This document shows, piece after piece, positions 2,435 to 29,918 of a stretch of DNA of 32,080 bases. The position numbers and the translations under genes are program-made. Where the stretch lies: assembly GCA_913055845.1 (NCBI GenBank), contig CAJXKO010000025.1:1-32080 (forward strand), written 5' to 3'. Positions within the stretch are counted from its first letter, which is position 1; each line of letters starts with the position of its first letter. The stretch comes from an uncultured Bacteroidota bacterium (lineage in GTDB: Bacteria > Bacteroidota > Rhodothermia > Rhodothermales > Salinibacteraceae). The notes beneath the pieces were generated by a model that was given only the letters and a program-made list of their open reading frames with translations, searched no databases and was not told the origin of the DNA.

Positions 2435-2540
2435 AGTAACGGCCCTGGCCCACATGTGACAATAGGGGCCCGCACAGCGATTGTCGGTCAGGTGTCCAGC
2501 GCTCGATCACCGTCTCTTTGACCACGCATTCCATAGCACT

Positions 2541-3905: not shown

Positions 3906-3943
3906 GGGGGCACTGCTCATCCTTGTCAGTCGTCAGCCGAGAC

Positions 3944-3958
3944 TTCCATTGTATGGAA
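3944..3958. repeat. AT-rich inverted repeat between otsA and otsB
   Basis: TTCCATTGTATGGAA is a perfect six-pair inverted repeat around TGT, in a G+C-rich genome. It lies about 40 bases before the otsB start and could be an operator, or part of a promoter for otsB. No other support is visible. Confidence 0.25.
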
Positions 3959-4000
3959 TGATGACGTGTGCTGCGCAGTGTGTATTGCGTGATGTAAGCC

Positions 4001-4803: not shown

Positions 4804-5871
4804 TCAAACGTACTCCTCGAACTGGTGGGCGTGGAGGTACTCCACGACCTGTTTCACCTGCTGGGCATTCTCGCGGTCGCACACGAGGACCGCATCGCCG
4901 GTGTCTACGACCACCTGGTCGTGGATGCCCACGAGGACGACGAGCCGATCTTCGGTCTGCACGTAGCACCGGCTAGAGTCCTGCATGATGACGTCGCCCT
5001 CGATGACATTGCCGTGATCGTCCTTCTCGCTGAGGTCGTAGACGGCGCGCCAGTCGCCCACGTCGTTCCAGTCGAACGTGCCGGGCACCACGTACACGGT
5101 GTCGGCCTGCTCCATCACGCCGTAGTCGATGGAGATGTGCGGGCTATTGCGGAAGGCCTGCGTAAGCGTCTCGGGGTCCACGTTGCCGCCCGCCGCCCGG
5201 ACCGGTGCAAACGCCTCGTGGGCGTCGGGCAGGTGCGCCTCGATCTGGTTGAGGATGGTGTCGGCCCGCCAGATAAACATGCCGCTGTTCCACAAAAAGT
5301 CCCCCGCATCGATGAACCGCTCGGCGGTGGACTGGTCCGGTTTCTCGGCGAAGGTGCGCACGGGGTAGGCCCGGAGCTCGCCCGTCTCCTCGGCCCCGTT
5401 GTACTGGATGTAGCCGTAGCCCGTGGCCGGGTAGGTGGGTTCGATGCCGATGGTGACCAGCGCTTCGCGCGTGCGGGCTGTCTCGAAGGCCACGTGGAGC
5501 GTCTTGTGAAACTGCTCCACGTTTCCAATCACGTGGTCGGCCGGCAGCACCGCCATCGTGGCCTCTGGGTCGCGTTGGGCAAGCGTGGTGGCCGCGTAGG
5601 CGATGCAGGGGGCGGTGTTGCGGCTAATCGGCTCAGCGAGAATGTTTTCGTCGGGCACGGCCGGCAACTGCTTTTTGGTCTTCTCTACGTACCGCTCGTG
5701 GGTGACGATGAGGCAGCGCTCCGGCGGCACGAGGCCCTGCAGCCGCGCAACCGTGTTCTGGATGAGCGTCCCGTCGCCAAACACGTCGAGAAACTGCTTG
5801 GGGTGCTCCTTGCGGCTGGCGGGCCAGAAGCGCGTACCAATGCCCCCGGCCATGATGACGGCGTACTTCAT
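4804..5871 (-). CDS. manC: Mannose-1-phosphate guanylyltransferase
   Basis: It makes GDP-mannose from GTP and mannose-1-phosphate, the donor for mannose and, after conversion, for fucose-type sugars in surface glycans. The nucleotidyltransferase signature MAGGIGTRFWPASRKEHPKQF lies at residues 8-27, with the conserved K25. It is followed by EPISRNTAPCIAYAA, VLPADHVIG (metal ligand D112), FAEKPD, FLWNSGMFIW and GTFDWNDVGDW, all typical of the family. The protein is 355 residues, so it lacks the C-terminal phosphomannose isomerase domain of the roughly 470-residue bifunctional ManC/AlgA enzymes. The GT2 gene lies 99 bases upstream on the same strand, and the two may be cotranscribed. Confidence 0.95.
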   Translation of the reverse strand: MKYAVIMAGGIGTRFWPASRKEHPKQFLDVFGDGTLIQNTVARLQGLVPPERCLIVTHERYVEKTKKQLPAVPDENILAEPISRNTAPCIAYAATTLAQRDPEATMAVLPADHVIGNVEQFHKTLHVAFETARTREALVTIGIEPTYPATGYGYIQYNGAEETGELRAYPVRTFAEKPDQSTAERFIDAGDFLWNSGMFIWRADTILNQIEAHLPDAHEAFAPVRAAGGNVDPETLTQAFRNSPHISIDYGVMEQADTVYVVPGTFDWNDVGDWRAVYDLSEKDDHGNVIEGDVIMQDSSRCYVQTEDRLVVLVGIHDQVVVDTGDAVLVCDRENAQQVKQVVEYLHAHQFEEYV

Positions 5872-5970
5872 CTTGCGAAACGGGTCGTGAGGGAAAATCC
5901 AGAAAGAAAGTGTACGGACCCTCCAACATAGGGATCGGGCGGGGAAGAAGTGAAGTGGTCCATCCGGGGG

Positions 5971-6918
5971 TCACGAGCGCAGTAGCGGGTGGTCGCGGGC
6001 AAGCACCGTACGGACGCCGCGGATCAGTCCCCGGAGTGCCGCGGGGCGGGAGGGGCTCGAGGACGTAAGGATCGCGAGAAGTTGGCCAACGAGCCCCCAC
6101 CAGTACGCCAGTCGGGCACTGGAGGCGGCGAAGTGTTTCTCCACGAACCAGCGGCGATGTACGGTGAGAGCGTAGCTGTACCGCTCAGCGTCGAGGCGAT
6201 TGCGAGAGGCACGTCGGTGCGTCAGGCGGGCTCTCGGCTGCACGACCAGACGGGTCTGCTGGTGGATCCGGTAAGAAAGATCCAAATCTTCCAGCATTGA
6301 GTAGCCGGTGAGGGCTCGGTCGAACCGGTGCTGTTCCAGAAGTGGGCGGCGGTACGAGGCGCAGCCGCTCAGCCACGCCGTTGTGCGAAGGCCTGAGGAA
6401 GCGTCCGCGATGTGGTGCTGGGCACTTGTGGCAATGCCGGAGGGGAGCACCCGTCCAGGCTCGGGGTGGCTTAGCAAAAACAGGTACCGGAGCCACGCGG
6501 CACGAGCCGACGAGTTGGTGCTCGAAGGCTCCAGAACGACCCCGCCCACGCCCCCCACATTCGGCCTGCCCCGAAGCGTCTCCGAAAGCGTCTCAAAGTA
6601 GCCCGAATGCACCGTCACGTCGTCGTCGATGAAGTGGACAATCTCGACGGAGGGGGACAGTAGGTCGAGTCCCGCGTTGCGCTGTCGGGCCGAGGAGGGA
6701 GCGTCTGTGTACGGTAAATACGTGCTGGGCCGCAGGGCGAAGCTCTCCACGAGACGTCGCGTGCGGGCCTGTTGTCTAGCGTCGCTCGCGTCGACCACCA
6801 CGAGCTGGAGGTCGATGTCCGGCGGATGTGCCGCGATGCTGTTGAGGGTCCGCCGGAGCGGGCCGGGCCGGTTTCGCGTACAGATGACGACCGCGTCCGA
6901 CGGGGCGGGACGGGGCAT
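5971..6918 (-). CDS. Family 2 glycosyltransferase
   Basis: A GT-A fold transferase that adds a sugar from a nucleotide donor to a growing glycan, probably at the inner face of the inner membrane. Evidence: the N-terminal AVVICTRNRPGPLRRTLNSI, then LVVVDASD, SSARQRNAGLD, the metal-binding FIDDDVTVH (D98-D100), a GCASYRRPLL acceptor region, and EDLDLSYRI carrying the probable catalytic base. The 315-residue length is normal. Near the C-terminus LAYWWGLVGQLLAILTSS is hydrophobic and may contact the membrane. Donor and acceptor cannot be predicted; its neighbour manC makes mannose a reasonable guess only. It is divergent from the GT4 gene at 7240. Confidence 0.9.
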   Translation of the reverse strand: MPRPAPSDAVVICTRNRPGPLRRTLNSIAAHPPDIDLQLVVVDASDARQQARTRRLVESFALRPSTYLPYTDAPSSARQRNAGLDLLSPSVEIVHFIDDDVTVHSGYFETLSETLRGRPNVGGVGGVVLEPSSTNSSARAAWLRYLFLLSHPEPGRVLPSGIATSAQHHIADASSGLRTTAWLSGCASYRRPLLEQHRFDRALTGYSMLEDLDLSYRIHQQTRLVVQPRARLTHRRASRNRLDAERYSYALTVHRRWFVEKHFAASSARLAYWWGLVGQLLAILTSSSPSRPAALRGLIRGVRTVLARDHPLLRS

Positions 6919-7239: not shown

Positions 7240-8385
7240 ATGCCTGCTCATTCTCAGTCACGGGTCGTCCACGTGACGACGGTCCACCAGCCGTTCGACC
7301 CGCGCATCTTTTACAAGCAGCTTGCTTCGCTCCGCGACGCCGGCTTCGACGCGCATCTCATCGCCCCCTACGAGCAGGACGAACAGGCCCACGGCATCTC
7401 GATTCATGCTCTCCCGCGGCCCGAGACCCGCTGGCACCGGCTCGCCCTTCAGCCGCGTGTGTTTAAAAGCGCGCAATCACTTGACGCCGCGCTGTATCAA
7501 GTCCATGATCCGGAGCTTCTGCCCCTCGCGTTTTTCCTGAAACGGACGACGGGGACGACGGTCGTGTATGACATGCACGAGAACTACCGGTCGAAGGGGG
7601 CGCTGTTGGGGCGGGGCCTTCGGGCACTGGAGCGCTGGGCGTTTCGGTGGGTCGACCACGTGCTGCTTGCGGAGGGAAGCTACCGGTCGATTGTGGATGG
7701 TCACGCGGTCCCGCACACCTACATTGCCAACTACTTCCGCCCAGTCGGGGACGAGGAGCCGCTCGACACCGTGGAGATCAGCGAGAGGCCGACGCGGCTT
7801 CTCTACACCGGTACGCTGTCCGCCAGCCGCGGCCTCCGGACGATGGTCGATCTGGCCACCCACATTCGGCGTAGCGGCCGCCCGGAGACTCTTTCCCTGG
7901 TCGGCATTTGCCGCTACGAGGAGCAGCGGGCCCGGGTGGAGGCGCGGATGCAAGCGGAGGGGCTCGGGGCGGTCATTGACCGCGTAGGGTGGGACACGTA
8001 CGTCCCGCCCACGGCTATGCCGCCCCACCATCGCTGGGCCGATGTGGGCCTTGCGCTGTTCGAGCCACACCCCAACTACCACACGTCGCTCCCTACGAAG
8101 TTTTACGAGTACCTCCACTACGGCCTGCCCATCATTTGCTCGGATGTTCCGCTATGGCGGCGCTTCGTGGAGGCGCACGAGTGCGGCGCTGTGGTGCCGC
8201 CGGGCGATCCGGACGCAGTCCTCAACGTGCTGGACGAGTGGCAGGCCCATCCGGACCGGTACCGGCAGTGCGTAGAAAATGCTCGCGCCGCGGCCCCGCA
8301 GTATCGGTGGCAGGGGATGGGCGAGCGTCTGGTGGCGTGCTACCATACGCTGCTTTCGGCGTCTGCCTCAACACCTATTCGCTGA
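7240..8385 (+). CDS. Family 4-like glycosyltransferase
   Basis: A GT-B fold transferase of 381 residues starting from the ATG at 7240. The N-terminal Rossmann half starts with VVHVTTVHQPFDPRIFYKQL, the typical opening in which the acceptor-side loop follows the first strand. It continues with AALYQVHDPELLPLAFFLK and VVYDMHENY. The C-terminal donor half has LLYTGTLSASRGLRTMVDL, a LSLVGICR strand, and the donor-binding TKFYEYLHYGLPIICSDVP. No signal peptide or membrane segment is obvious. The sulfotransferase gene starts 13 bases after the stop, so the two are almost certainly cotranscribed and may act on the same glycan. The sugar donor is unknown. Confidence 0.88.
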   Translation: MPAHSQSRVVHVTTVHQPFDPRIFYKQLASLRDAGFDAHLIAPYEQDEQAHGISIHALPRPETRWHRLALQPRVFKSAQSLDAALYQVHDPELLPLAFFLKRTTGTTVVYDMHENYRSKGALLGRGLRALERWAFRWVDHVLLAEGSYRSIVDGHAVPHTYIANYFRPVGDEEPLDTVEISERPTRLLYTGTLSASRGLRTMVDLATHIRRSGRPETLSLVGICRYEEQRARVEARMQAEGLGAVIDRVGWDTYVPPTAMPPHHRWADVGLALFEPHPNYHTSLPTKFYEYLHYGLPIICSDVPLWRRFVEAHECGAVVPPGDPDAVLNVLDEWQAHPDRYRQCVENARAAAPQYRWQGMGERLVACYHTLLSASASTPIR

Positions 8386-8398
8386 GCGTCTTCCGACG

Positions 8399-9218: not shown

Positions 9219-12200
9219 CTAGCGAATCACGCTGATTTTTTCGATGTCGCCTCGGAACGTGTTGTCGGCCCCTTCGATGCGCACCCGGTAGAGGTAGACG
9301 CCCGTCGCCACCCGGTCGCCGTCCGCGTCGCGCCCATTCCAGCGCATGGTGTTCCACCCCACGCGTAGCGGCGCGTCGAGGTCGGCCTCGTCGAGTTCGC
9401 GTACGAGGCGCCCGGAGAGGGTGTAGATGCGCAGCGCGAAGTCTCCGAGCGCCTTATTCTGCCCGCCCTCTACGCGGAAGGCAAACGTGGTGTGGGTGTT
9501 CATTGGGTTGGGGTAGGGGTACACGTCGCGAATGACCTGCTCCTGCTGCACCCGGAAGCTGCCCTGGTAGGGCTCCACCTGGTTCCCGCGCGCATCTTCG
9601 GCCTCCACCTTCAGGGTGTACGTCGAGTCGCGGAGGGGCAGGTCCGGCTCGTAGAGCAGCCGCAGCGGATCGGTGCTGCCCGAGTCCGGCGGCACAAATT
9701 CCAGGGCGTCGCTGGTAAAGGGGACGCGCCGGAATAGCGAGCCGAGCTCGGGGTCGCGCTCCGGGGGGCCGCCCTTCAGGTACACGTCCACGCGGCTCGT
9801 ATCGTCGAAGACGAGGTTGGGGTTGTCGTCCTTGACGAGGATTTCGAGGGTGGGCTGGGTGGACACGAACGGGAGGCGGGGCGACTGCAGGCCGATGTCG
9901 TCGGCGGTCGTGGGCAGTTCGCGGCCGTTGGCCAGAACCCGCACGGACGGCGGCGTGTCGTCGGCGTCCACGTAGAGGTTCTGGACGGCAGTGTTGTTGC
10001 TCGGCAGACGCTCCGGCGGGCCGTCGGTCTGGGCCGCTGCCGTTATCACGTTGCTGCCGGGAACCTCGGTGCTCGACAGCGAAAAGGCGCTCGTGTCGCG
10101 CCCTCCGTTCGGGGCAAGGGCCGAGAGCGTATCGGTGAGCAGCGTGGTCGTCGCGTTGGCCGCGTCCTGAAGGGTGACGCGGAGGCGAACCGGGGCGCTG
10201 GCCACTGGCCCGAAGTTGACCGCGGGCACGGGGGCGGAGACGGTTTCTCCCTGGCGGACGGTGTCGGGGAGGGCGGCTAGGCCTGAAGGGTCGATTGCGA
10301 GTTCGGGAACGCCCGTGTGCGAGACGCTCCACTGCGTAAGCTGTGGCGCCGTGCGGTCCGTCGAGTCGGACAGGGTGGCGCGGAGGTAGAGATACGGATG
10401 CGTCCCTGCATCGATCGCGGAAAGGTCGCGCTCGCCCGAAGTGCCACTCAGGTTGTCGATGAGGACAGTGGAGTCTGCCGCGAGAACGTCAAGGGCAATC
10501 CGGTCGGCCGCGTTGGGGGCACGGCCGCTCCACTGAAGCGAGCCCCATTCGCTCGCCGGCCCGACTCGTGTGGAGCGTGTGGTTCCCGACGGGTAAGTAA
10601 ACCGCAGCCGCTCCTGCTGCCCGATCTGGTTTGTATCGGCCCGGGCCCGCACCTGCTCCACGGTGGCGTCGGGGAAGCCCTTGCGGGCCTTCAGGGTCCA
10701 GAGGTCGTTGTAGGTGAGGCTATCGATGGCCGCCGAGTGGGGGGTGTCCGTAATCGATGTGGTTCCTAAGTTTTCGAAGAGCGACACAACCTCCGTCGGG
10801 ATGGTCGCGCCGCTCTGGCGGGCGAGGTGCCGAGTCCGCACGAACACATAGTCCCCCTCCTGAGCCACATCGTCGAGAAACGTGGCGAGGGCCTCGATGG
10901 CCGCCTGCTGGTCGCCCACGTCGTCCTCGTACTGATCCTGCAGGTCGTAGGTGGGAAACGATTCACTGTCCCGCACCTCACCGGTGCGATCGTCCACCAC
11001 GAGCACCCCAAAGCCGAACTGCAAGTACTCGTAGTTTGCGGTGCCGTCGAGGATGAAGCCGTGGACGAAGGAGGCGTTGCCCACGTTGGAGCGGGCGCGG
11101 ACGTTGCGCGGGAACGTGCCGAACGCCCACGAGCGGTCTGTGCGTCGCAGCCGCGTGTTCGCATTGGTGCCAAATAGGCGGTCCCGCTGGAGCCAGGACC
11201 GCTCGGGAAGGGTGGGGGCCACCGTAAAGCGGGCGGTGCGCCAGGCCTCGGTGCTCATGTTGGCGAGGCGGGCCCGCCAGTAATAAGTTTGGTCGGGCTG
11301 GAGGGCGGCGGGCTGCCACGTGCCGCGTAGTCCCCCGACTTCACGTCGCACCTCCCGGCGGGCCGGCGACGAGAAGTCGGGCACCGTGTCGAGCTGTAGC
11401 TCGACCGGGACCTGGTCGGTCCGCTGGCCGGAGACGGTGAACTCGAGGGTCGGGCGGTCGGAGGCGGCCGTGCCGTAGTCGGGCGGATTGAGCAGGGACA
11501 CCCCGGTGTCGAACACCACCTGCGTGCGCTCGGCCGTGTTGTTGGTTTCGTTGGCCTCCGCGTAGGTGTTCTCCAAGTCGACACGTGCCCGGAAGGTATT
11601 GGCCCCGATGGCGCGCTCGTCGAGATCAAAAGAGAAGGAGAGCGTCTTTTCGAGCCGGAAGCGGTCGAGGCGCCGGGTGCGCTGGGTGACGGTGCCGTCT
11701 GGTTGCTCCCAGGTAAGGCGGGCGGTCACGCTGTCGGACGGAATGAGGCCGCGGTTTTGGATCTGTACCTCCACGGTCAACTCGTCGGAGGGGACCGGCG
11801 TGGTGGGCTCGGTGGAGATGAGGCTGGGCGAGACGTGAAAGTCGGGGCGCGTGGGGAGGGCGATGTTCGTGGCTGGATCGCCGATGAGGCCGTACTGCAG
11901 GAGGTGCTTCACGTAGAAGTCGCTGCTTCCGAAGTCGGCGTCAATCTCGGCCTTGGCCTCCTGGATGGCCGTGCCCAGTACGCGCATGGTGTCCACGAAG
12001 ACGCGCTGCACGAGGGCGTTGTTGATGCGTGCCGAGGGAATCAGGTTGCCGAGGGCTGACTCGCCAAAGTGGGCGATGCCGCCGTTGAGGGCGCCCTCAC
12101 GCGGGGTCCCATCCGGGCGCACAGAGCCCACGACGATCTGCTCGCCCAGCGAGGGGGCACTTTTCTCCTCGAACCGGCCCCCGGCGAAGGAGCCGGTGCG

Positions 12201-14264
12201 GCAGCCCAGCGAGACAGCGATGGGCAGGCGGCCGGCATTGTCCCACTCGGCCGGCGGGTCTGTCACGATCTCCCAGGTCTGGGCGGCCGAGTGGCCAAAG
12301 TAATTGAGCCACCCGGCCCCCGCCCGCAGGTCCACGGCGAGCGAGTCCTGAAAGCTGGCGTCGAGGGCGTCGTTCACCTTCTTGTAGTACTGAATCGTGT
12401 CCGCCCCGGTGTTCACGGGGACCGGATCCCCATCGACGGTGGCGACCGTGTCCGACGCAATTTCCCCCCAGCGATTGGAGTAGAACTGAAGCTGGTTCTG
12501 CTCGCCCTCGTTGGTCCCGCCCGCCAGCAAGAGCATGCGCTTTTGCCACCGCTCTAGGGGCGCCGTCTCGTAGCTTTGTAGCTTTTCGACGAACAGCTCT
12601 CCCTGCGGCACGGAGCGGACCGGGATGCGTCCTACGGCCAGCAGTTCCGACCAGTCGTCGGGCCCGTCGCTCTGCATGGCAAACCACCCGTCCGACGGGG
12701 CAAAGCCGAACGAGGGCACGCTCCACTCGGGGTAGAGCGTGTCGACCGAGCCATCGCGGATGGGATACTGCGCGTCGGCGAAGATGGAGAGAAAGCGCGG
12801 CGCGGGGCTCCAGTCTTGTGTCGCCCGCACGAAGCGGCGGATGGCGATGGGCGTGGGCCGCCCGTAGTCGAACTCGTCGAAGACGTTCTGCACGAGGGCA
12901 ATCTCCACCTCGTAGCCGTCGTGCGACCGACGATGGGCGGCCAGCTGCTGAGCAGCGGGGAGCAGGGCCTCGGTGGTCAGAATCAGGTAGTCGGCCCCGT
13001 GGGCGTCGGGGGTTGACCAGCTGCTCGGCGTGTCGGGCGCGACAGAGGCGGGACTCTTGTAGCCGTCACTGCCCACGGCCCAGAGCGCCGTGGCGTCCGA
13101 ACTCGGAGCTGCCGAGACGGTCGCGGTGTCGCCGTCAATCGGAGCCGTGTACTGGTGGGCATCGGTCGGATTGTAGACGCGCACCGAGTCGCCCGTGTGG
13201 CCGGTAAGGGCGAAGGTGGACGCCCCAGCCGTGGGCGGTACGAAGCGCTGCTGATCGTCCTCGGCCGTGAGCGCTCGTGTGTAGGCTGCCTCGGCCCAGT
13301 CGAACAGCACGTAGTTGGGCGTGCTGGCGGGGTCGGGGCAGTTGCGACTGTCGGAAAACCCGCTGTTATACGACGTGACGCGCAGGGTCAGGCCCGTCTC
13401 GGGGACCTGATCCTGCACCACCGCGGTCTCCACTGTGATGCGGTTCAGGCTCTCCCATTCGCGGGTTTTCAGCGATTCAAAGGCCAACGTGCCGTCGGGC
13501 TGGAGCAGTTCGCCCTCAACCTCAACGCGGTGGCAGGAGGCGTTCGTCTCGGCGTCGAACCGGAGCGAGAGTTCAAGACTGTCGTCCGAGGCGGCGCGGC
13601 GCCTCACCGGAAGGGTGTAGGTGGCCGAGAGGGATTCGGTATCGTTGTGGCGGAAGCGGCGCCAATAGTAGCCTTCCGAGCGGGTGTAGAGGGGGTTGCC
13701 GGTTTTGCCGGGCCGCCCAAAGTAGTAGTACTGGTCCTGCTCGATGTGGGCCGTGTCGGGGAGGGCCGTCGTGGGCGGGCTGGGGGGGGCGGACGCGTCC
13801 GCGTACCGGAGGCCGTCCGTGCCGCCCCAGGTCAGCCAGTAGTGGGTGGTGTCGCTGTAGAGGCTGCGGGCCGTGCTGCTCTGGGCGGACGCATTGCCGT
13901 TGTAGGCCCAGACCTCGTCGGTCCCGCGGTTGCGGCGTCCCACGAACGTGATCGTGTCGGCGGGGTCGAGCGTGCCGTCCGCGGCGCCACGAACCTCAAT
14001 AGGAACCTCCGTGCCGTTCTCGATCAGGCGGAGGGTCCTCGGGGAGATGTCTGAGAGACTGGTGCCCCCGGGAAGTGCGTCCTGAAGGGCGCTGGCCGGC
14101 ACGCGGTACACTCCGTCGCGGGTGACGTTGATCTTGAGGTGAGGGGCGTCGGGGTCGTACCACGAGGGGTCGTAGTCGCCGGATTGTGCCGGGGCAAGGC
14201 GGGGAGGCAAAAGCGCCAGGAGGCACACGAGCATGGCCCAAAATGCGCGGGAGGGGGGCAGCAT
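9219..14264 (-). CDS. PorU-like C25 (gingipain-family) cysteine peptidase with type IX secretion C-terminal domain
   Basis: This 1681-residue protein starts with a Sec signal peptide (about residues 1-27, ending LAPAQS). Then comes a PorU-type N-terminal region (LKINVTRDGVYRVPASAL) and a C25 peptidase domain at roughly 420-790. The catalytic pair is visible as YFGHSAAQTW (H658) and SLGCRTGSF (C688). Their 30-residue spacing is close to that of RgpB gingipain (H211, C244). Two CARDB-like adhesion domains follow, near 815-910 and 1320-1435; each ends in an N-N-T motif. The last 100 residues (from YPYPNP, about 1581) resemble a type IX sorting or FlgD-like domain: LRIYTLSGRLV, WNGRDADGDRVATGVYLYRV. 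Known family members are secreted proteases or the sortase PorU. Which of the two this is cannot be settled from sequence. It lies 52 bases downstream of a GT4 gene in the amino-sugar cluster. Confidence 0.85.
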   Translation of the reverse strand: MLPPSRAFWAMLVCLLALLPPRLAPAQSGDYDPSWYDPDAPHLKINVTRDGVYRVPASALQDALPGGTSLSDISPRTLRLIENGTEVPIEVRGAADGTLDPADTITFVGRRNRGTDEVWAYNGNASAQSSTARSLYSDTTHYWLTWGGTDGLRYADASAPPSPPTTALPDTAHIEQDQYYYFGRPGKTGNPLYTRSEGYYWRRFRHNDTESLSATYTLPVRRRAASDDSLELSLRFDAETNASCHRVEVEGELLQPDGTLAFESLKTREWESLNRITVETAVVQDQVPETGLTLRVTSYNSGFSDSRNCPDPASTPNYVLFDWAEAAYTRALTAEDDQQRFVPPTAGASTFALTGHTGDSVRVYNPTDAHQYTAPIDGDTATVSAAPSSDATALWAVGSDGYKSPASVAPDTPSSWSTPDAHGADYLILTTEALLPAAQQLAAHRRSHDGYEVEIALVQNVFDEFDYGRPTPIAIRRFVRATQDWSPAPRFLSIFADAQYPIRDGSVDTLYPEWSVPSFGFAPSDGWFAMQSDGPDDWSELLAVGRIPVRSVPQGELFVEKLQSYETAPLERWQKRMLLLAGGTNEGEQNQLQFYSNRWGEIASDTVATVDGDPVPVNTGADTIQYYKKVNDALDASFQDSLAVDLRAGAGWLNYFGHSAAQTWEIVTDPPAEWDNAGRLPIAVSLGCRTGSFAGGRFEEKSAPSLGEQIVVGSVRPDGTPREGALNGGIAHFGESALGNLIPSARINNALVQRVFVDTMRVLGTAIQEAKAEIDADFGSSDFYVKHLLQYGLIGDPATNIALPTRPDFHVSPSLISTEPTTPVPSDELTVEVQIQNRGLIPSDSVTARLTWEQPDGTVTQRTRRLDRFRLEKTLSFSFDLDERAIGANTFRARVDLENTYAEANETNNTAERTQVVFDTGVSLLNPPDYGTAASDRPTLEFTVSGQRTDQVPVELQLDTVPDFSSPARREVRREVGGLRGTWQPAALQPDQTYYWRARLANMSTEAWRTARFTVAPTLPERSWLQRDRLFGTNANTRLRRTDRSWAFGTFPRNVRARSNVGNASFVHGFILDGTANYEYLQFGFGVLVVDDRTGEVRDSESFPTYDLQDQYEDDVGDQQAAIEALATFLDDVAQEGDYVFVRTRHLARQSGATIPTEVVSLFENLGTTSITDTPHSAAIDSLTYNDLWTLKARKGFPDATVEQVRARADTNQIGQQERLRFTYPSGTTRSTRVGPASEWGSLQWSGRAPNAADRIALDVLAADSTVLIDNLSGTSGERDLSAIDAGTHPYLYLRATLSDSTDRTAPQLTQWSVSHTGVPELAIDPSGLAALPDTVRQGETVSAPVPAVNFGPVASAPVRLRVTLQDAANATTTLLTDTLSALAPNGGRDTSAFSLSSTEVPGSNVITAAAQTDGPPERLPSNNTAVQNLYVDADDTPPSVRVLANGRELPTTADDIGLQSPRLPFVSTQPTLEILVKDDNPNLVFDDTSRVDVYLKGGPPERDPELGSLFRRVPFTSDALEFVPPDSGSTDPLRLLYEPDLPLRDSTYTLKVEAEDARGNQVEPYQGSFRVQQEQVIRDVYPYPNPMNTHTTFAFRVEGGQNKALGDFALRIYTLSGRLVRELDEADLDAPLRVGWNTMRWNGRDADGDRVATGVYLYRVRIEGADNTFRGDIEKISVIR

Positions 14265-14316
14265 GACGGAGCAGCGGCGACCGTCCGGAGGGGCGGGATG
14301 AGCGTGAACTGAAGGA

Positions 14317-15489
14317 TCAGGAGGCGGCCTCCTGTGCCTGGCGGTAGAATGATCGCGTGCGGCGAATGAAAGGTTCCGGTCCGTAACGCTCGAGAGTGCG
14401 GGTGCGGATCTGTGCCGGGGCGTATGCGGTCCATCGATCCGATAGGGCGCGAAGGGCGTCAGCCAATGACTCAGGATCGGCCGGAGGCACGAGGAGCCCG
14501 GTCTCGTCGGTCACGATGTCCGCGGGGCCGCCGCACCGCGTGGCCACTGCGGGCAGCCCCGTGGCCTGAGCCTCCACCAGCGCGACCCCAAACGTTTCGT
14601 GGCGGCTGGGGAGCACGAAGGCGTGGGCCTCCCAAAGCGCGTCCCGTACGGCCGTCCGGCCCAGCCAGCCGCGGAAGGTTACCTGGGCGGCAATACCGAG
14701 GCGCCGGGCTTGCGCCATCAGCGCGTCGCGTTGCGGACCGTCGCCGACAATGGTGAGCGAGGCCGCCTCGTCCCTGAAGGCCCGCGCAAACGCCACCAGC
14801 AGCGTGCCGATGTCCTTCCGGGCGTTCAGTCCGGCGACCGTCACGAAGCGGACGGGCGGTGGGGACGAGCGGTCGCTCGGGGGAGGCGTGAAGAGCGAGG
14901 TGCGGACGGGATTGGGGTGCACCGTCACGTCTGCGGGGGCGGCGAGACCGCGTTCTACGAGGGTCTCCTGGAGCGCTGTGCTCACCGCCGCTAGGCCACT
15001 GGCCCCGCGGATGCCCTCTTCCACCAGCGGCCGCCGCCAGGGGGGCACCTCGTCCCGCACGAAGCCGCTGTAGTGTTCGGTAAGCACGGCGGGCACCCCA
15101 AACGCATCGCCGATCCGGGCCGCGGCGGCCCCGGCCCAGCGAGCGCTGTGGGCGTGGATCACGTCAGGCTCTCCGTAGCGGCCAACGTAGCGGTGCGCGA
15201 GGCGAACGGCATGCCAGATCCGCAGGCGCATTCCCGGCGGAAAGCGCCACCATACGTTCCAGTCGTACCGGCGGAGGGTAGGAACGTCGTGCTCGGTCGT
15301 CCACGCCGTCTGGAAGTGTTTTTCTCGGAGGGCTTTCCCGGAAAGCCGACGTAGACTTTGCTGTTCGGGGTAGACCACGCCCACCTTGAAGCCATGCTCG
15401 TGAAGCATCCGGGCCTGCTCGGCGAAGTAGATGCCCTGCAGCGGAGCCTCGGTGGTCGGGTACCAGGAAGGAACCACGAGGACGTGCAT
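14317..15489 (-). CDS. Family 4 glycosyltransferase
   Basis: A GT-B fold retaining glycosyltransferase of about 390 residues. The acceptor half has HVLVVPSWYPTTEAPLQGIYFAEQARML, the usual GT4 opening with an exposed loop, and DVIHAHSARWAGAAAARIG followed by VLTEHYSGF. The donor half has FVTVAGLNARKDIGTLLVAF, LTIVGDGPQRDALMAQA, VTFRGWL and the EX7E motif HETFGVALVEAQATGLPAV (E298 and E306), then GGPADIV. Start choice: ATG at 15489 is preferred; a GTG two codons upstream (15495) is also possible. It lies between the FlaA1-like dehydratase gene (81-base gap) and the C25 peptidase gene (52-base gap), in the same direction. Donor sugar is not predictable. Confidence 0.92.
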   Translation of the reverse strand: MHVLVVPSWYPTTEAPLQGIYFAEQARMLHEHGFKVGVVYPEQQSLRRLSGKALREKHFQTAWTTEHDVPTLRRYDWNVWWRFPPGMRLRIWHAVRLAHRYVGRYGEPDVIHAHSARWAGAAAARIGDAFGVPAVLTEHYSGFVRDEVPPWRRPLVEEGIRGASGLAAVSTALQETLVERGLAAPADVTVHPNPVRTSLFTPPPSDRSSPPPVRFVTVAGLNARKDIGTLLVAFARAFRDEAASLTIVGDGPQRDALMAQARRLGIAAQVTFRGWLGRTAVRDALWEAHAFVLPSRHETFGVALVEAQATGLPAVATRCGGPADIVTDETGLLVPPADPESLADALRALSDRWTAYAPAQIRTRTLERYGPEPFIRRTRSFYRQAQEAAS

Positions 15490-15570
15490 GGACACCGGCG
15501 TGTAGGGACGGATGTCTAGCGTCGATCGGGAGGAGCGGCAAGGTCTTCTTTCGTCCCTCCCCCTCCTGCA

Positions 15571-17145
15571 TCACAGTTCGAGGGCAGGCGGCTCTGGCGG
15601 CGAAGGCTCTGCCGTCGCCGAGTCGTCGGGACGTGCGTTAAGGAGCAGTTTGCGTAGCTGCTCGCGCGACTCACGGGTAGGATCGGACACCGCCTGTAGG
15701 CGCTGCAGATGCGCGTTCAGCGCGGAGCGGGTATGCGGGACAGGGCCATTGAGGCCTACGATGCGGGGGTGATCGATGGAGTGGAGAGTTTCGGCATCGC
15801 GCACCAGCTCTTCGCTTAGCTTCTCGCCGGGGCGGCGGCCCACGTACTCAATCATGGTCTCCGGGTCGACATGCGGGTACCAGCGCTCCACCAGTCGCTC
15901 GGCCAGCCACTGAATCTTGATGGGCTCGCCCATGCGGAAAATGTAGGTCGGATGGGCCTTGAGTAGAAGGGTCTGCAGGATGAGCCCACAGGCCTCCGCC
16001 GGGCTCATAAAGTAGCGCTCCATGTCCGGGTGCGTCACCGGCACGGGCTCCCCGGCGGCGAGTTTCTCCTCAAATCGGGGGACGACGCTGCCCTGCGTCC
16101 CAAAGACATTGCCGAAACGCACGGTTGTGCAGTGTGGAGGGGCCTCGGCGGTGCGCACGTACCACTCCGAGAGCTGTTTTGTCGCTCCCATCACACTAGC
16201 GGGGTTTACCGCCTTGTCCGTCGACACATACACGAACCGGTCCACCGCGTGCTCTTCGCAGAGGCGAAGAAGGTGAACGGTGGCCTTGGTGTTGTTGCGG
16301 AAGGCCTCGGCCGGGTGGCGCTCCATGAGGGGGACGTGCTTGTAGGCCGCGGTGTGGAGCACCACGTCGGGGCGGAGGCGCCGGAACAGGTCGTCCATGA
16401 GGGAGGCGTCGCGCACGTCGGCGATGCAAAACTCCAGGTCGCCGTCGTAGCGTTCCGCGCGCAGGGCCGTTTCGAGCCGGTACAGGCTGTGCTCACTCAC
16501 ATCCACCAGCGCCAGCCGGAACGGGTTGAGGGCGATTAGCTGCCGACTCAGCTCCGATCCGATAGACCCCCCGGCTCCGGTCACGAGGACCGTGCGGTCG
16601 GAGAGCACATCGCGTAGAGCGGAGCGGTCTACCGCCACCGGGGCGCGAGGCACGAGGTCGTCGAGGCGCACGGTGGGGATGGCCGTGCCGGGGGCAGGCG
16701 CCTCCGGCGCGTCGGACACGGCCTCCAGCAGTCCCCGGGTGGCTGCGCGTAGGCCCAGTATACCCACCAGGGCCACGAGCCCGAGCACGGCCATTACGCC
16801 ACGCGGCGGCACGTCGGGGTCGACGGCGTAGGTGAGCGGAATCGAAAGCACCCACGCACCGATGAGCCACAGGCCCACCCGCGTAAATTCCGACAGGTGC
16901 ATGAGGCGGGGGGAGAGCCGGTACACCCCACTCGCGACGAGGGCGGCCCCGTAGGCACAGAGGACGAGGATCGAGGCCGTGCCCCATTCCGTCGCGTGGG
17001 GCCACAGCCACTCTCCGAGACGAATTCGGTAGCCGAGGAGGAGCCCCCCAAACAGGATCAGAGCATCCGGCAGGGCCAGCATGAGTGGCACCCGTCCCCG
17101 GAGACGGGCCCAGACGGACGAGGGATCAGGATTGGGGGAAGGCAT
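15571..17145 (-). CDS. FlaA1/PglF/WbpM-like UDP-sugar 4,6-dehydratase, membrane-anchored
   Basis: Enzymes of this group convert UDP-GlcNAc to UDP-4-keto-6-deoxy-GlcNAc, the first step to bacillosamine or QuiNAc-type sugars. Four hydrophobic segments lie at about 19-41, 56-77, 87-108 and 115-140, then a linker and the SDR domain from about 185. The NAD-binding VTGAGGSIGSELSRQL starts near residue 188. The catalytic region VSTDKAVNPASVMGATK has D310, K311, M319 and K323: methionine replaces the usual SDR tyrosine, as in WbpM. Later FGNVFGTQGSVVPRF and RRPGEKLSEEL fit the family. At 524 residues it is about 100 shorter than most membrane-bound members, because the CoA-binding-like domain between the helices and the SDR part seems absent. 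It probably supplies the keto-sugar for the aminotransferase at 19690. Confidence 0.9.
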   Translation of the reverse strand: MPSPNPDPSSVWARLRGRVPLMLALPDALILFGGLLLGYRIRLGEWLWPHATEWGTASILVLCAYGAALVASGVYRLSPRLMHLSEFTRVGLWLIGAWVLSIPLTYAVDPDVPPRGVMAVLGLVALVGILGLRAATRGLLEAVSDAPEAPAPGTAIPTVRLDDLVPRAPVAVDRSALRDVLSDRTVLVTGAGGSIGSELSRQLIALNPFRLALVDVSEHSLYRLETALRAERYDGDLEFCIADVRDASLMDDLFRRLRPDVVLHTAAYKHVPLMERHPAEAFRNNTKATVHLLRLCEEHAVDRFVYVSTDKAVNPASVMGATKQLSEWYVRTAEAPPHCTTVRFGNVFGTQGSVVPRFEEKLAAGEPVPVTHPDMERYFMSPAEACGLILQTLLLKAHPTYIFRMGEPIKIQWLAERLVERWYPHVDPETMIEYVGRRPGEKLSEELVRDAETLHSIDHPRIVGLNGPVPHTRSALNAHLQRLQAVSDPTRESREQLRKLLLNARPDDSATAEPSPPEPPALEL

Positions 17146-17202
17146 AGGGCGCAGCGTGGATGGAGGGAGAGGCCGGGATGCTCTCGTCCCGCACGGATCG
17201 GA

Positions 17203-18411
17203 TCAATCTACCGAGCCGGACCCGGCCCGCGCAACCAGGTGTGCGTACCGGTTCATCAGGGTGGTTCGGGCAAAGCGGTCGCGGGCCAGGTCGTGGGCCG
17301 TGCGACCCATCGCGGCAAGGGCGTCGGGCGACGCAAGTGCCGTCCTGATGCAGTTCGCCAGGGCCCCCGGTGACTCGGGGTGCACGAACCACCCACAGCC
17401 GTGCCGCTCCACAAACCGCTTCGTCCACCCAGGGTTCGTCACCACTACGGGTGTGCCAGTGGCGAGGCTGTCGAAGAACTTGCCCGGTGAGTTGGCGGCC
17501 AGCACGGGCCGGTCGACAAAGGAGACGAGTGAGAGGTCGGCGTGCGTGAAGAGGGCAAGTGTGTCGGGGTATGAGAGTGGGGGGAGCCGCCGAATCGCTT
17601 CGTGCCAGCGGGCGGTCCGCTCAATTGTCGAGGCGTGGTGGCCCTGCCCGGCAAAGGCCACCAGCACGTCGGAGCGCTCCGCAACGAGGCGTCGGGCGGC
17701 ATCGAGTAGGGTAGGAATCGCGTTGGCCCGGCCGAATGTGCCAGCGTAGAGCACGAGGAAGCGGCGATCCAAATCAAAGCGTTCCGAGATTTCGGCCCGT
17801 CGTTTCGGACTAATCTCGTCGATTCGCGTGAAGTCGGCGCCATACTCCACCGTCGCGACCGAGGCCCCGGGCGCCCGAGTGCGAACGTGCTGCTCCATGT
17901 CCGTGGAAAGCGTCACGACCTGCGCCGCGCTCCGGTACAGGGCTGCCTCCCCCCATCGCAGCAGGCCATGCAGCCCGCAGTTCGGCACCGCACCCATCTG
18001 GATTGGGAAGGCTGGCCAGAGGTCACGCACCTCGAAGATCCACGGCACACCGCGCAGCCGGGCCACGGTCCCCGCCGCGGCCGCGGCCGTGAGCGGAGTC
18101 GAGGAGCCGAGGATGAGATCGGGGCGTGGCATCTGCAGGCCGTGCCGAAGGGCCCGGGCGGCGTAGCGCAGAAACGCCCCGAGCCGTCGAGGGGCCGACA
18201 TGGTGTTGTCGTACGGCACGTCGAACCGCACGAGGTCGACGCCCGGGGGCGCCCACGGAAACCGATGGGCCTTCCGTGTTTTCTCCCAGGCCCGTGTTGT
18301 GAGTACCGTCACGTCGTGATCACGCCCTAGACGCTCGACCAGGGCGTGAGGCCGACCGGCAGTGGGGCAGTCCGGCGTATGGTAGTATTGGAGGAAGACG
18401 GCGATCCGCAT
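17203..18411 (-). CDS. Family 4 glycosyltransferase, WbuB/PglA-like
   Basis: A 402-residue GT-B transferase. The start RIAVFLQYYHTPDCPTAGRPHALVERL is characteristic of the WbuB group, which adds an amino sugar near the lipid-linked end of O-antigens. Further landmarks are LILGSSTPLTAAAAAGTVARL, WIFEVRDLWPAF, FLVLYAGTFGRANAIPTLLDA, VLVAFAGQGHH, and the donor-binding AANSPGKFFDSLATGTPVVVTN. The neighbours are the acetyltransferase gene 10 bases upstream and the dehydratase gene 57 bases downstream. By analogy with PglA it may add the second sugar to an undecaprenyl-diphosphate-linked diacetylbacillosamine. This is inference from context; specificity is not readable from the sequence. Confidence 0.9.
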   Translation of the reverse strand: MRIAVFLQYYHTPDCPTAGRPHALVERLGRDHDVTVLTTRAWEKTRKAHRFPWAPPGVDLVRFDVPYDNTMSAPRRLGAFLRYAARALRHGLQMPRPDLILGSSTPLTAAAAAGTVARLRGVPWIFEVRDLWPAFPIQMGAVPNCGLHGLLRWGEAALYRSAAQVVTLSTDMEQHVRTRAPGASVATVEYGADFTRIDEISPKRRAEISERFDLDRRFLVLYAGTFGRANAIPTLLDAARRLVAERSDVLVAFAGQGHHASTIERTARWHEAIRRLPPLSYPDTLALFTHADLSLVSFVDRPVLAANSPGKFFDSLATGTPVVVTNPGWTKRFVERHGCGWFVHPESPGALANCIRTALASPDALAAMGRTAHDLARDRFARTTLMNRYAHLVARAGSGSVD

Positions 18412-18421
18412 GCGTGGGACG

Positions 18422-19063
18422 TCAGGGCTGTGGGCGAGCGGGAGCGCCGACGGCGGTACAGCCGGGCGGGAGGTCGTGGGTTACCACCGCCCCGGCCCCC
18501 ACGGTGGTTTGGGGGCCTATTCGCACGCCACGGAGCACGACGGCCCCGGCCCCGATCGTGACGCCTGGTTCGAGGTGCACCGAGCCCGAGATGTGCGCCC
18601 CTGGGCGAATCGACACGAACGAAGCCAGGCGCGCATCGTGGCCCACGGTGGCGTGCTGGTCGATCACGGTGTGCGCGCCAATCCCGACGTTGACGGTCGG
18701 TGCGGCCCCGACACATAGGACCGCGCCGGGGGCGAGTGTGGTGGTGCGGTGCACCGAGACCGACGGGTGCACGAGCGTAGTCGGCGAAACGTCGGCCGCC
18801 TCCAGGCGCTCGGCTACCGCACGCCGTGTCGACCCGGCGCCAATGCCAATCACGAAGCGCAGCTCCGACTGCTCGGCGAGCCAGTCGACGTCGCCCCGCA
18901 CCGGGTACCCCAGCACCGTTGTGCCGTGCAGGGCTGGATCATCGTCCACGAAGCCGGCAATTGCGGAGGCGGGAGGGGCGTCGTGACACGCCTCGGCCAG
19001 GGCCGCGACCTCCCGGCCCAGCCCCCCCGCCCCTACGACGATGAGAGACGAGGGGTCAGGCAT
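18422..19063 (-). CDS. PglD/NeuD-type sugar O/N-acetyltransferase
   Basis: This protein probably acetylates the 4-amino group of a UDP-amino-sugar with acetyl-CoA, giving a diacetylated sugar. It has two domains. An N-terminal Rossmann-like part (SLIVVGAGGLGREVAALAEA, residues 6-25) would bind the UDP-sugar. A C-terminal left-handed beta helix is formed from hexapeptide repeats from about residue 97 (LVHPSVSVHRTTTLAPGAVL, GIGAHTVIDQHATVGHDARL, GVTIGAGAVVLRG, TTVGAGAVVTHDLPPG). H137 aligns with the catalytic histidine of Campylobacter PglD. The length of 213 residues is typical. Its start overlaps the end of the phosphoglycosyl transferase gene by 8 bases, which implies translational coupling. 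NeuD-like sialic acid O-acetylation is the alternative, but no neu genes are nearby. Confidence 0.9.
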   Translation of the reverse strand: MPDPSSLIVVGAGGLGREVAALAEACHDAPPASAIAGFVDDDPALHGTTVLGYPVRGDVDWLAEQSELRFVIGIGAGSTRRAVAERLEAADVSPTTLVHPSVSVHRTTTLAPGAVLCVGAAPTVNVGIGAHTVIDQHATVGHDARLASFVSIRPGAHISGSVHLEPGVTIGAGAVVLRGVRIGPQTTVGAGAVVTHDLPPGCTAVGAPARPQP

Positions 19064-19685
19064 CGGGCTCGGCGGAGGGCAGGTCGGAGGGGAACGATGG
19101 ATTGTGGGCGTGGGGCCCGTTCACTCCGGTGCCGCGCCACAGGACGGCCGGCGTGCGTAGGAGGATGCGCAGATCGAGTCCCAGACTGCGGTGCTGCACG
19201 TACCATACGTCCAGATCGATCCGCTCGGGCCACGAGAGCGCGTTGCGCCCGTGAATCTGTGCCCAGCCTGTAAGGCCGGGCGGCACCTGGAGGCGGGTGC
19301 GCTCGTGGGCCCCGTACTGTGCCACCTGTTCCGGCAGCGTGGGGCGGGGACCGACGAGGCTCATCTCGCCGCGCAGGACGTTCCAGAGTTGCGGCAGTTC
19401 GTCGAGGGCCCAGCGCCGCAAGGGGCCGCCAATGCGGGTCGTGTGCGCCGCGGGCCGCGTCGGATCGTCCGGTTCGTGGGTTAGCGTGCGGAATTTGACA
19501 ATGCGGAACGGGGCACCCTGGTAGCCTGCCCGCGTCTGCGTGAAGAAGAGGGGCCATCCGTCGTCGAGCCAGATGCAGAGCGCCACGAACCCAAAAAGGG
19601 GCGCCAACGCCACGAGCAGCAGGCCGGCCCCGATGAGGTCGAGGCCCCGCTTGGCCGGTGGGTAGATGCAGGAAAGAGGAGGCAT
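19056..19685 (-). CDS. PglC-like initiating phosphoglycosyl transferase
   Basis: This monotopic membrane enzyme moves a sugar-1-phosphate from a UDP-sugar to undecaprenyl phosphate, which starts glycan assembly. It is 209 residues, the short PglC form with only the core domain. The re-entrant hydrophobic helix RGLDLIGAGLLLVALAPLFG lies at residues 13-32. It is followed by PLFFTQTRAGYQGAPFRIVK and FRTL. The catalytic dyad D95-E96 lies in ALDELPQLWNVL (Campylobacter PglC D93-E94). LRGEMSLVGPRP and PPGLTGWAQIHGRN close the core. The aminotransferase gene ends four bases upstream and the acetyltransferase gene overlaps its end. The presence of those two genes suggests that the substrate is UDP-diacetylbacillosamine or a close relative. 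Confidence 0.93.
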   Translation of the reverse strand: MPPLSCIYPPAKRGLDLIGAGLLLVALAPLFGFVALCIWLDDGWPLFFTQTRAGYQGAPFRIVKFRTLTHEPDDPTRPAAHTTRIGGPLRRWALDELPQLWNVLRGEMSLVGPRPTLPEQVAQYGAHERTRLQVPPGLTGWAQIHGRNALSWPERIDLDVWYVQHRSLGLDLRILLRTPAVLWRGTGVNGPHAHNPSFPSDLPSAEPDA

Positions 19686-19689
19686 GACG

Positions 19690-20904
19690 CTAGCGGCGCG
19701 GGAGCGAGGGGAGGGCCGCAGTGAGGGTCTTCGCCACGCGATCCACGTCTGCGCGGGTCATGGTGTCGTAGAATGGAAGAGCGAGCGTCCGTGCCGAGAT
19801 CCGCTCGCACACCGGAAAGTCCCCGGGCGCGAAGCCAAACCGATCGCGGTAGTACGGCTGCAAGTGGATCGGTGGAAAATATGGCGCACACTCAATGCCG
19901 TGGTCCTGCAGGTGGACCATCAGTTGGTCGCGGGCGTCGTCCGCGAAGTGGTCGCGCAGCCGGACGACGTACACGAACCAGCTGCGCTCGGCTTCGGCCG
20001 GCCAGCCTGGACGCGCCACGTCTTCAGCCAGGGGGGCAAGTGCGTCGTGGTAACGGTCCGCGACGGCGGCGCGGCGGTCGAGGAGCGCATCGAGTCGCTC
20101 GAGCTGGGCGAAGCCGAGGGCCGCCGACATCTCATCAAGCCGATAGTTGTACCCGAGACGGTCGTGCTGCATGCGTCCATTTCCGGCACGGCCCTGGTTG
20201 CGGAAGGCGCGGCACCGGCGGGCCAGGGCCGCGTCATTGGTCGTGATGCAGCCGCCCTCGCCCGTGGTAATTTGCTTGTTTGGGTAGAATCCAAAGCTCG
20301 CCGCGTCACCCCATCCGCCGATCGGGCAGCCCCCCACCGAGGCGCCTATCGCCTCGCAGGCGTCATCAATGAGTTGGAGATCGTGTTCGTCGGCCAGCGT
20401 TCTGAGGAGGGGCCAGTCCACCGGCACGCCGAACACGTCGACCGCAAGGATTGCCTCAGTCTCCGGCGTAATCGCGTCGGCCACGCGGTCCACGTCGAGG
20501 TTGTACGTGGACGGGGTAATGTCTACATAGCGCGGTCGTAAGTCCTCGTACAGTAGCACGTTGCTCGACGCGACAAAGCTAAACGGCGTCGTAATGACCT
20601 CGGCGCCCGCCGGCAGGTCGAGGGCCCGCACGATGCAGTGCAGGGCGCCTGTCCCGCTGCTCACGGCCACGGCGTGTTCGGTGCCGCACCGTTCCGCCAT
20701 CGCGTCCTCGAAGGCCTCCAGGTAGGGCCCGCGCGACAATTGCTCAGAGTGGAGGACCTCTAGTACCCGCTCGCGCTCGTGGTCCGTCAGGCTAGGGCGG
20801 GCGAGCGGCAGTGGGGCCTCTGTGGGCGGGGAGGGTTGGCTCGACACCGGAGACGGAGAGGAAGTGGCGGAGAGCAGAAACGGGAACGGGAGGTCGTCTC
20901 CCAT
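19690..20904 (-). CDS. DegT/DnrJ/EryC1-type sugar aminotransferase
   Basis: A PLP-dependent enzyme that aminates a keto-sugar nucleotide, most likely the product of the FlaA1-like dehydratase in this cluster, as PglE does. Key features are VSSGTGALHCIVRAL (phosphate-binding), TTPFSFVASSNVLLY, LIDDACEAIGA, and SFGFYPNKQITTGEGGCI with the PLP-binding K210. FRNQGRAGNGRMQHDRLGYN and RLDEMSAALGFAQL follow. The core normally begins near PLPLARPSL, so the first 30 or so residues (serine- and proline-rich) are an unusual extension. An internal GTG at 20847 would remove 19 of them. It is the first gene of the minus-strand cluster, and a 12-bp palindrome lies three bases before its ATG. PorR of Porphyromonas belongs to the same broad family. 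Confidence 0.92.
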   Translation of the reverse strand: MGDDLPFPFLLSATSSPSPVSSQPSPPTEAPLPLARPSLTDHERERVLEVLHSEQLSRGPYLEAFEDAMAERCGTEHAVAVSSGTGALHCIVRALDLPAGAEVITTPFSFVASSNVLLYEDLRPRYVDITPSTYNLDVDRVADAITPETEAILAVDVFGVPVDWPLLRTLADEHDLQLIDDACEAIGASVGGCPIGGWGDAASFGFYPNKQITTGEGGCITTNDAALARRCRAFRNQGRAGNGRMQHDRLGYNYRLDEMSAALGFAQLERLDALLDRRAAVADRYHDALAPLAEDVARPGWPAEAERSWFVYVVRLRDHFADDARDQLMVHLQDHGIECAPYFPPIHLQPYYRDRFGFAPGDFPVCERISARTLALPFYDTMTRADVDRVAKTLTAALPSLPRR

Positions 20905-22222: not shown

Positions 22223-22279
22223 GCCTCCCCTACAGTCCCCCCCAGTTTGCTTCAGAATAGAACACACCTCGATTGAAAA

Positions 22280-26272: not shown

Positions 26273-26321
26273 GCCCGCGAAAGCTCGCAAGGCTCATCGA
26301 CACACCGTTCACGCTCTCAAT

Positions 26322-27347: not shown

Positions 27348-27417
27348 GCATTTGGGGAGGCAAGGGCCTCCGGCACACACGACGAAGGGATCGATCACGA
27401 CAAACCGGTTCACGCAC

Positions 27418-28338: not shown

Positions 28339-28372
28339 CAGTTTTGTTTGACAGTCTGCCTTCCCCCACCCG

Positions 28373-28933: not shown

Positions 28934-28951
28934 GGCCGCCCTCTCCCCGCG

Positions 28952-29863: not shown

Positions 29864-29869
29864 ACGGGG

Positions 29870-29918
29870 AGGCGAATATTCAGAAAAGTTATCGGACTTC
29901 GAGGCGCTGCATTCGCCT
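29870..29918 (+). terminator. Long-loop inverted repeat after rfbD
   Basis: AGGCGAAT (29870-29877) pairs perfectly with ATTCGCCT (29911-29918) across a 33-base gap; the next outer pair is G-T. It begins seven bases after the rfbD stop, and the 3' arm is followed by ttgtacccc. It may end the rfb transcript or be part of the leader of the next gene. Confidence 0.3.

Follow-up and report, generated by a model that had tools for sequence, protein, structure and literature searches.

We describe a cluster of seven minus-strand genes, at positions 9219-20904 of a 32,080-nucleotide stretch of DNA (the window) from an uncultured bacterium of the family Salinibacteraceae (Bacteroidota, order Rhodothermales), which we read as a putative glycan-assembly operon ending in a dedicated sortase of the type IX secretion system (T9SS); we give this reading a probability of about 0.58. 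The genes encode, in order, a DegT aminotransferase, a PglC-like transferase, a PglD-like acyltransferase, a glycosyltransferase of family 4 (GT4), a FlaA1/PglF-like dehydratase, a second GT4 and a C25 peptidase. By its sequence the peptidase is a PorU2-type paralogue and not canonical PorU, and most likely it is a T9SS sortase that specifically serves the glycan built by its own locus. The association of PorU2 with glycan genes is real, conserved and controlled. The window is one contig (C25 in our numbering) of a 3.25-Mb draft genome that is 94% complete, and the cluster has the following features.

9219..14264, minus strand: PorU2-type C25 peptidase, presumed T9SS sortase, 1681 residues (NF052324 376.8 bits, NF033707 247.7 bits, PF01364 185.6 bits)
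11865..12989, minus strand: C25 catalytic domain, residues 426-800, with His658 and Cys688 (Peptidase_C25, PF01364, 186 bits; both residues invariant in 94/94)
11529..11846, minus strand: CARDB domain, residues 807-912 (seen in 19/20 Rhodothermales PorU2 scanned)
10677..11015, minus strand: ILEI/FAM3-like domain, residues 1084-1196 (PF15711, E = 9.9e-5, 23.2 bits, below the cut-off of 27)
9225..9569, minus strand: C-terminal FlgD-Ig/T9SS-type domain, residues 1566-1680 (weak match to the PorZ tail, 27 bits)
14317..15495, minus strand: GT4 glycosyltransferase (PF13692, 112 bits)
15571..17145, minus strand: FlaA1/PglF-like nucleotide-sugar 4,6-dehydratase (PF02719, Polysacc_synt_2, 290 bits; best PDB match WlaL, 5bju, E = 6e-62)
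17203..18411, minus strand: GT4 glycosyltransferase (PF13579, 63 bits; PF00534, 47 bits)
18422..19063, minus strand: PglD/NeuD-like sugar N-acyltransferase (TIGR03570, 186.7 bits, above the cut-off of 160.8; PglD_N/Hexapep)
19056..19685, minus strand: PglC-like initiating phosphoglycosyl transferase (PF02397, Bac_transf, 192 bits; best PDB match diNAcBac-1-P transferase, 8e37, E = 2.7e-36)
19690..20904, minus strand: DegT-family nucleotide-sugar aminotransferase (PF01041, DegT_DnrJ_EryC1, 383 bits; best PDB match perosamine synthetase, 3bn1, E = 6e-72)

This layout bears out a preliminary description of the same DNA, both in its coordinates and in Pfam support for each gene name. The intergenic gaps are 4 bp (DegT-PglC), -8 bp (PglC-PglD, the one overlap), 10 bp (PglD-GT4), 57 bp (GT4-FlaA1), 75 bp (FlaA1-GT4) and 52 bp (GT4-C25). 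Where gaps of at most 81 bases with one overlap had been claimed, the overlap stands and the largest gap becomes 75 bp, since 81 bp arises when the GT4 gene at 14317-15495, which has a GTG start, is begun at its next ATG.

We counted a glycan gene as adjacent when it lay within 700 bp, with distances taken from stop-to-stop frames, in 27 genomes of the window's family (22 of them at least 80% complete) and in 103 Rhodothermales genomes at least 80% complete. A glycan gene adjoins PorU2 at 18/18 family loci and at 17/19 other Rhodothermales loci (35/37), and canonical porU at 0/20 loci of the order; in the 19 genomes that carry both genes, adjacency is found at 17 PorU2 loci versus none of the porU loci. 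The two PorU2 loci that have no adjacent glycan gene (L078 and L085) each have less than 5 kb of flank. With the window's own proteins as the only queries, the counts are 16/18, 14/19 and 0/20, and 149 glycan matches lie at the 37 PorU2 loci versus none at the 20 porU loci. Canonical porU adjoins porV at 19/20 loci, the remaining one being on a 4.8-kb contig. The order DegT, PglC, PglD, GT4, FlaA1, GT4, C25 recurs across the family with losses and swaps; in G011, G012 and G015 the block from DegT to FlaA1 lies some 18 kb off in the opposite orientation, with a GT4 gene still adjacent to the peptidase. Outside the family, FlaA1 is found upstream of PorU2 at 7/19 loci (about 5 kb away in G059), and the other Rhodothermales loci have GT4, family 2 glycosyltransferase (GT2), ManC or Wza-type neighbours. 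One family genome, G023, gave no match with the window queries, and the seven flanking open reading frames (ORFs) scanned there contained no glycan family; we dropped it as an exception when broader profiles found a divergent GT2 that overlaps its C25 frame at the called 5' end. The recurrence of the arrangement in relatives, together with its absence at the canonical porU controls, argues for more than chance; the neighbours, whose comparison in related genomes had been proposed at the outset, are kept across much of the order.

The identity of the peptidase rests on profile scores, phylogeny and neighbourhood. NCBIfam ranks the "putative sortase PorU2" model NF052324 first (376.8 bits, cut-off 450, residues 11-909 on model positions 5-879), and the canonical PorU model NF033707 gives 247.7 bits, short of its cut-off of 420; on this second model, PorU from family genome G007 reaches 877 bits. 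Among the matches listed, 1/103 order genomes passes the NF052324 cut-off. A quick maximum-likelihood tree built from 94 sequences splits PorU2 (76 rows) from PorU (18 rows) with support of 100 in the Shimodaira-Hasegawa-like approximate likelihood ratio test (SH-aLRT); the 34 rows of Rhodothermales PorU2 fall together as a single group (SH-aLRT 99) inside the wider PorU2, and the window's peptidase groups with PorU2 proteins above the NF052324 cut-off, apart from PorU. The porV gene of the window's genome sits on another contig (G000:C5) among other neighbours. Canonical PorU was rejected on the NF033707 score, the tree position and the gene neighbourhood. The catalytic pair, described earlier as intact, is indeed so, and it is invariant in 94/94 aligned PorU2/PorU proteins. 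A PDB search with the single protein returned PorU as the sole match at E 0.001, while a 20-sequence profile matched PorU (6za2) at E = 1.4e-38 and gingipain R (1cvr) at E = 0.0077. The earlier label, a PorU-type peptidase, is therefore right in that the protein is nearer to PorU than to gingipains and needs amending in that score and tree make it a PorU2-type paralogue; the grouping with secreted proteases that had been named as the contrary outcome was not seen, in a tree built without gingipains or other secreted C25 proteases. The AlphaFold models obtained for the two halves of the peptidase were poor (mean predicted local distance difference test scores of 48.7 and 61.8), and we base no conclusion on them; a fold search with the second-half model gave loose Ig-type matches at low template modelling score, PorU 6za2 among them. 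We found no publication naming PorU2 in the open-licence PMC literature.

Beside the catalytic core, FlgD_ig is present at the C terminus of 20/20 Rhodothermales PorU2 scanned and aligns with the PorU C-terminal domain. The ILEI/FAM3-like domain is found, at E up to 0.01, in 19/20 Rhodothermales PorU2 (20 of the 34 rows scanned) and 15/28 other PorU2 (28 of 42 rows), that is, in 34/48 PorU2, and in 0/17 PorU (17 of 18 rows). Its closest solved structures are the stem domains of POMGnT1 (profile match 5ggj, E = 7.6e-6), which bind GlcNAc (PMC9802357; this and the other papers named here are cited from excerpts of each). A PorU2-specific Arg-Thr-Arg-His is conserved inside the domain (19, 20, 19 and 17 of 20). 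That the domain holds a glycan is a speculative analogy.

The window's genome carries SprA, PorV and 24 matches to T9SS tails, from which we judge that a T9SS is present; across the family SprA is found in 26/27 genomes and PorV and T9SS tails in 27/27. A C25 match occurs in 18/27 family genomes, one in each. The one in G007 is a true PorU, beside porV and the sole family C25 of that type, and the remaining 17 share at least 48% identity with the window's protein along much of its sequence. Canonical porU was found in none of the 22 family genomes at least 80% complete and in 1/27 overall. A separate porU elsewhere in the genome, another outcome that had been named as speaking against a sortase here, was not found: the 94%-complete genome yielded no second C25 peptidase. 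Across the order, at least 35 of the 103 genomes have a PorU2-type match of at least 180 bits, to which G004 adds a contig-end fragment, and at least 19, all outside the window's family, hold both PorU2 and canonical porU. PorZ is above cut-off in 75/103 order genomes versus 0/22 in the family; PorQ is above cut-off in 12/22 family genomes, the window's not among them. An O-antigen ligase/polymerase-family protein is encoded in the window's genome. The FlaA1 gene (E 1e-60) is present in 16/27 family genomes, all 16 with PorU2 (one as a contig-end fragment); of the others, two have PorU2 without FlaA1 (G020 and G023), one has PorU only and eight have neither. Because the genes are linked, their being absent together says little about a shared function. 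One family genome, G016 (two contigs, 99% complete), has SprA, PorV and 15 T9SS-tail matches with no C25 match and no FlaA1 at E 1e-60, apparently a T9SS that has no C25 sortase.

Outside Rhodothermales we hand-picked from the match list 40 PorU2 loci, one in each of 40 genomes across the wider phylum, with 14 canonical porU loci. Early counts of 5/40 (E 1e-8) and 3/40 (E 1e-10), made with the window's proteins as the only queries, had implied that the linkage is confined to Rhodothermales; we discarded these as the product of query bias. With broader profiles, a glycosyltransferase is adjacent at 17/20 loci of one set (L129-L148; WecG-type in 15) and 1/20 of the other (L109-L128), the two sets being fetch batches and not clades. 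On the tree, L109-L125 and L128 form one PorU2 clade (SH-aLRT 100); an adjacent glycan gene is present at 18 of the 22 loci outside it, mostly for WecG-type glycosyltransferases. In L109, L118 and L120 of that clade PorU2 directly follows a conserved gene for some 380 residues, and the one product tested of the three (379 residues, L118) has no PDB match. A WecG/TagA-type gene directly adjoins PorU2 in many of these non-Rhodothermales Bacteroidota (L129-L146), with a 4-bp overlap in L135 and L137. Canonical porU has an adjacent glycan gene at 0/14 loci, and one glycan match within 6 kb at 2/14. Since the broader profiles come partly from the tested loci, the independent support outside the order comes from tallying Pfam families in 126 proteins that flank PorU2 at 16 loci, which gave 11 GT4, 7 GT2 and 6 WecG-family matches. 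The glycan-neighbour label needs four changes over 92 labelled rows (L126 is outside the tree, and L078 and L130 are unlabelled owing to short flanks), and the linkage may be old and lost in one clade, or gained repeatedly.

The cluster brings together a dehydratase, an aminotransferase, an acetyltransferase and a PglC-type transferase, as for the bacillosamine (Pgl) pathway, which suggests a 4-amino-4,6-dideoxy sugar starting a lipid-linked chain. The dehydratase's best match, WlaL, is what we take to be Campylobacter jejuni PglF; the acyltransferase is closest to VioB and a pilin-glycosylation enzyme in the PDB; and the aminotransferase matches 4ztc, presumably PglE, at E = 9e-29. WbaP, we believe, shares the PF02397 superfamily, in agreement with the PglC-like PDB match. 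The aminotransferase is nearer to perosamine synthetase (E = 6e-72) than to WbpE of the PorR family (E = 3e-41), and the sugar appears to be initiating and not distal, so that the analogy with PorR drawn in the preliminary description is weak. The linking sugar of Porphyromonas is a product of Wbp/Vim (PMC7468200), and in Porphyromonas gingivalis it is proposed to lie distally on a WbaP-initiated linker (PMC13086638). That of Prevotella intermedia is an N-alanyl deoxyhexose (PMC11969387), a type that would fit an amino-deoxy sugar pathway.

From these observations, we hypothesize that the dehydratase, aminotransferase and acyltransferase would make a nucleotide-linked 4-amino-4,6-dideoxy sugar, which the PglC-like enzyme would load onto a lipid carrier for the GT4 enzymes to extend. 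T9SS cargo would leave through SprA and be held by PorV, both of which are encoded in the genome. PorU2, exported by way of its own T9SS-type C-terminal domain, would use its His/Cys pair, as PorU does, to cut the cargo signal and join the cargo to the locus glycan, and the ILEI-like domain may hold that glycan, the role of PorZ for canonical PorU. The pairing of sortase and acceptor is plausible. A wider proposal, which we advance tentatively and hold to be possible at best, is that PorU2 is a second T9SS sortase lineage, in many members with a private, locus-made glycan and a built-in glycan-holding domain replacing PorZ, and that in Salinibacteraceae this pair has replaced PorU-PorZ.

Several observations weigh against a dedicated sortase paired with its glycan. 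The window's PorU2 scores below its own NCBIfam cut-off. The clade of L109-L125 and L128 has an adjacent glycan gene at 0/18 loci, so the pairing does not hold in every PorU2 lineage. The GT2, GT4 and WecG profiles used in the adjacency count were built partly from tested PorU2 loci, and the sampled genomes are related and so not independent. PorU2 has not kept the three residues by which POMGnT1 contacts its sugar (PMC9802357): by numbering deduced from residue spacing, two aligned positions have Arg in 1/20 and 2/20, one being Leu/Phe in 16/20 and the other varied (Asn in 7/20), while a gapped loop takes in the third. PorQ in the window's genome is one weak match (E = 2.2e-16), and the PorV of G023 scores better on the PorQ model (E = 2.1e-29). 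Finally, no aminoacyl-transferase for a Ser/Gly/Ala-type linker was recognised among the window genes scanned.

PorU2 could instead be a T9SS-exported surface protease, placed here because a polysaccharide island collects surface genes. The C25 family includes true proteases, PorU2 has a cargo-like T9SS-type tail (though so does PorU), a second sortase is not obviously needed in the at least 19 order genomes that also hold canonical porU, and one PorU2 clade is not glycan-linked. We nevertheless consider a protease unlikely, given that the clear relative is PorU and not gingipain, that the linkage is specific and persists across the order's families, and that PorU2 is the sole C25 peptidase found in 17/18 matched family genomes, in which T9SS tails are kept. 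It is less probable still that PorU2 hydrolyses and releases T9SS cargo while the glycan serves another purpose, such as a capsule, with a linkage that is regulatory and not mechanistic. Five family genomes at least 80% complete (G016, G018, G024, G025 and G026) retain both PorV and T9SS tails, and four also retain SprA, with no C25/PorU2 among the matches listed, so anchoring may be dispensable in the family; however, the adjacency recurs with different machinery (of the PglC/PglF type in Rhodothermales, of the WecG type in other groups), a pattern compatible with a requirement for the glycan as such. Chance combined with shared ancestry, for which the non-independence of related genomes speaks, is a very improbable explanation of 17/19 versus 0/19 in the same genomes and of a gene order that recurs across families while the flanks differ.

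Around the cluster lie other genes, among them neighbours of PorU2 in relatives:

7240..8385, plus strand: GT4 beyond the peptidase's far side, a neighbour in many relatives
4804..6918, minus strand: ManC-like guanylyltransferase (4804-5871) and GT2 (5971-6918), found as neighbours in some family members

The cluster is flanked at one end by genes for activated sulfate, CysD (1zun, E = 1.6e-92) and CysNC, at 21311-24199 (+), and at the opposite end by a sulfotransferase gene at 8279-9217 (+); sulfation of the glycan is possible. The genes that follow CysNC, at 24428-32080 (+), encode a citrate/sulfate-type transporter, a nucleotide-sugar dehydratase/epimerase, RmlC- and RmlD-like proteins and a Wza-like SLBB protein for export, which places the cluster within a larger polysaccharide island. 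Trehalose-phosphate synthase and phosphatase genes (2481-4738, +) stand beside the island in several relatives too. The window has no tRNA and no Rfam match at gathering score, and its promoter-like sites (2 vs 0.9 in shuffles) and terminator-like sites (9 vs 6.6) are about equal to expectation. The seven named loci recovered with the peptidase are from uncultured Bacteroidetes and Salinivenus, and the Salinibacteraceae/Rhodothermales group is presumably salt-loving.

In the papers cited here, linking sugars of T9SS cargo are described for a small number of oral species, each with a different sugar (PMC11969387). A sortase gene beside its presumed acceptor pathway would indicate which glycan to seek in many uncharacterised Bacteroidota, and the pairing is directly testable. 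The arrangement, kept in many relatives, suggests paired production of an anchor and of the enzyme acting on it. If PorU2 does stand in for PorU and PorZ in Salinibacteraceae, this would separate the essential from the lineage-specific parts of attachment.

Compared with PorU of P. gingivalis (NF033707; 6za2), the window's PorU2 has the same C25 His/Cys columns, a related N-terminal region and a T9SS-type C-terminal domain. It differs in its separate tree group, in a gene that lies in a glycan cluster and not beside porV, in CARDB and ILEI-like domains found in none of the 17 PorU scanned, and in the absence of PorZ above cut-off from its family (22 genomes). Of the NCBIfam models, PorU2 (NF052324) matches best, yet at 376.8 bits against 450. 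The cluster resembles the bacillosamine (Pgl) and perosamine systems in its grouped PglF-, PglD- and PglC-like and DegT 4-aminotransferase-like genes; it departs from Pgl in a DegT protein nearer perosamine synthetase, in the C25 peptidase at its end and in having no oligosaccharyltransferase among the window ORFs scanned. With synthesis of the linker of anionic lipopolysaccharide (A-LPS; WbaP, GtfC, GtfF and VimF with Wbp/Vim; PMC13086638) it would share an initiating transferase followed by a few glycosyltransferases, giving a lipid-linked oligosaccharide for a C25 sortase; unlike that system, it has no recognised Wbp/Vim-type neighbours within the window, and its amino sugar appears initiating and not terminal. 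In Flavobacterium johnsoniae, deletion of the DegT gene Fjoh_0334 and deletion of porU give the same listed surface phenotypes (PMC10936215). We found no publication, in the open-licence PMC literature, on PorU paralogues tied to sugar-gene clusters; the idea that sortase genes accompany linking-sugar genes has already been published for exosortases and rhombosortases (PMC7468200). In the exosortase/PEP-CTERM system, as here, the presumed transpeptidase gene sits with exopolysaccharide genes (PMC7468200, PMC10936215); the exosortase and its signal, however, belong to the inner membrane (PMC7468200), whereas the window's candidate would be an exported T9SS C25 enzyme.

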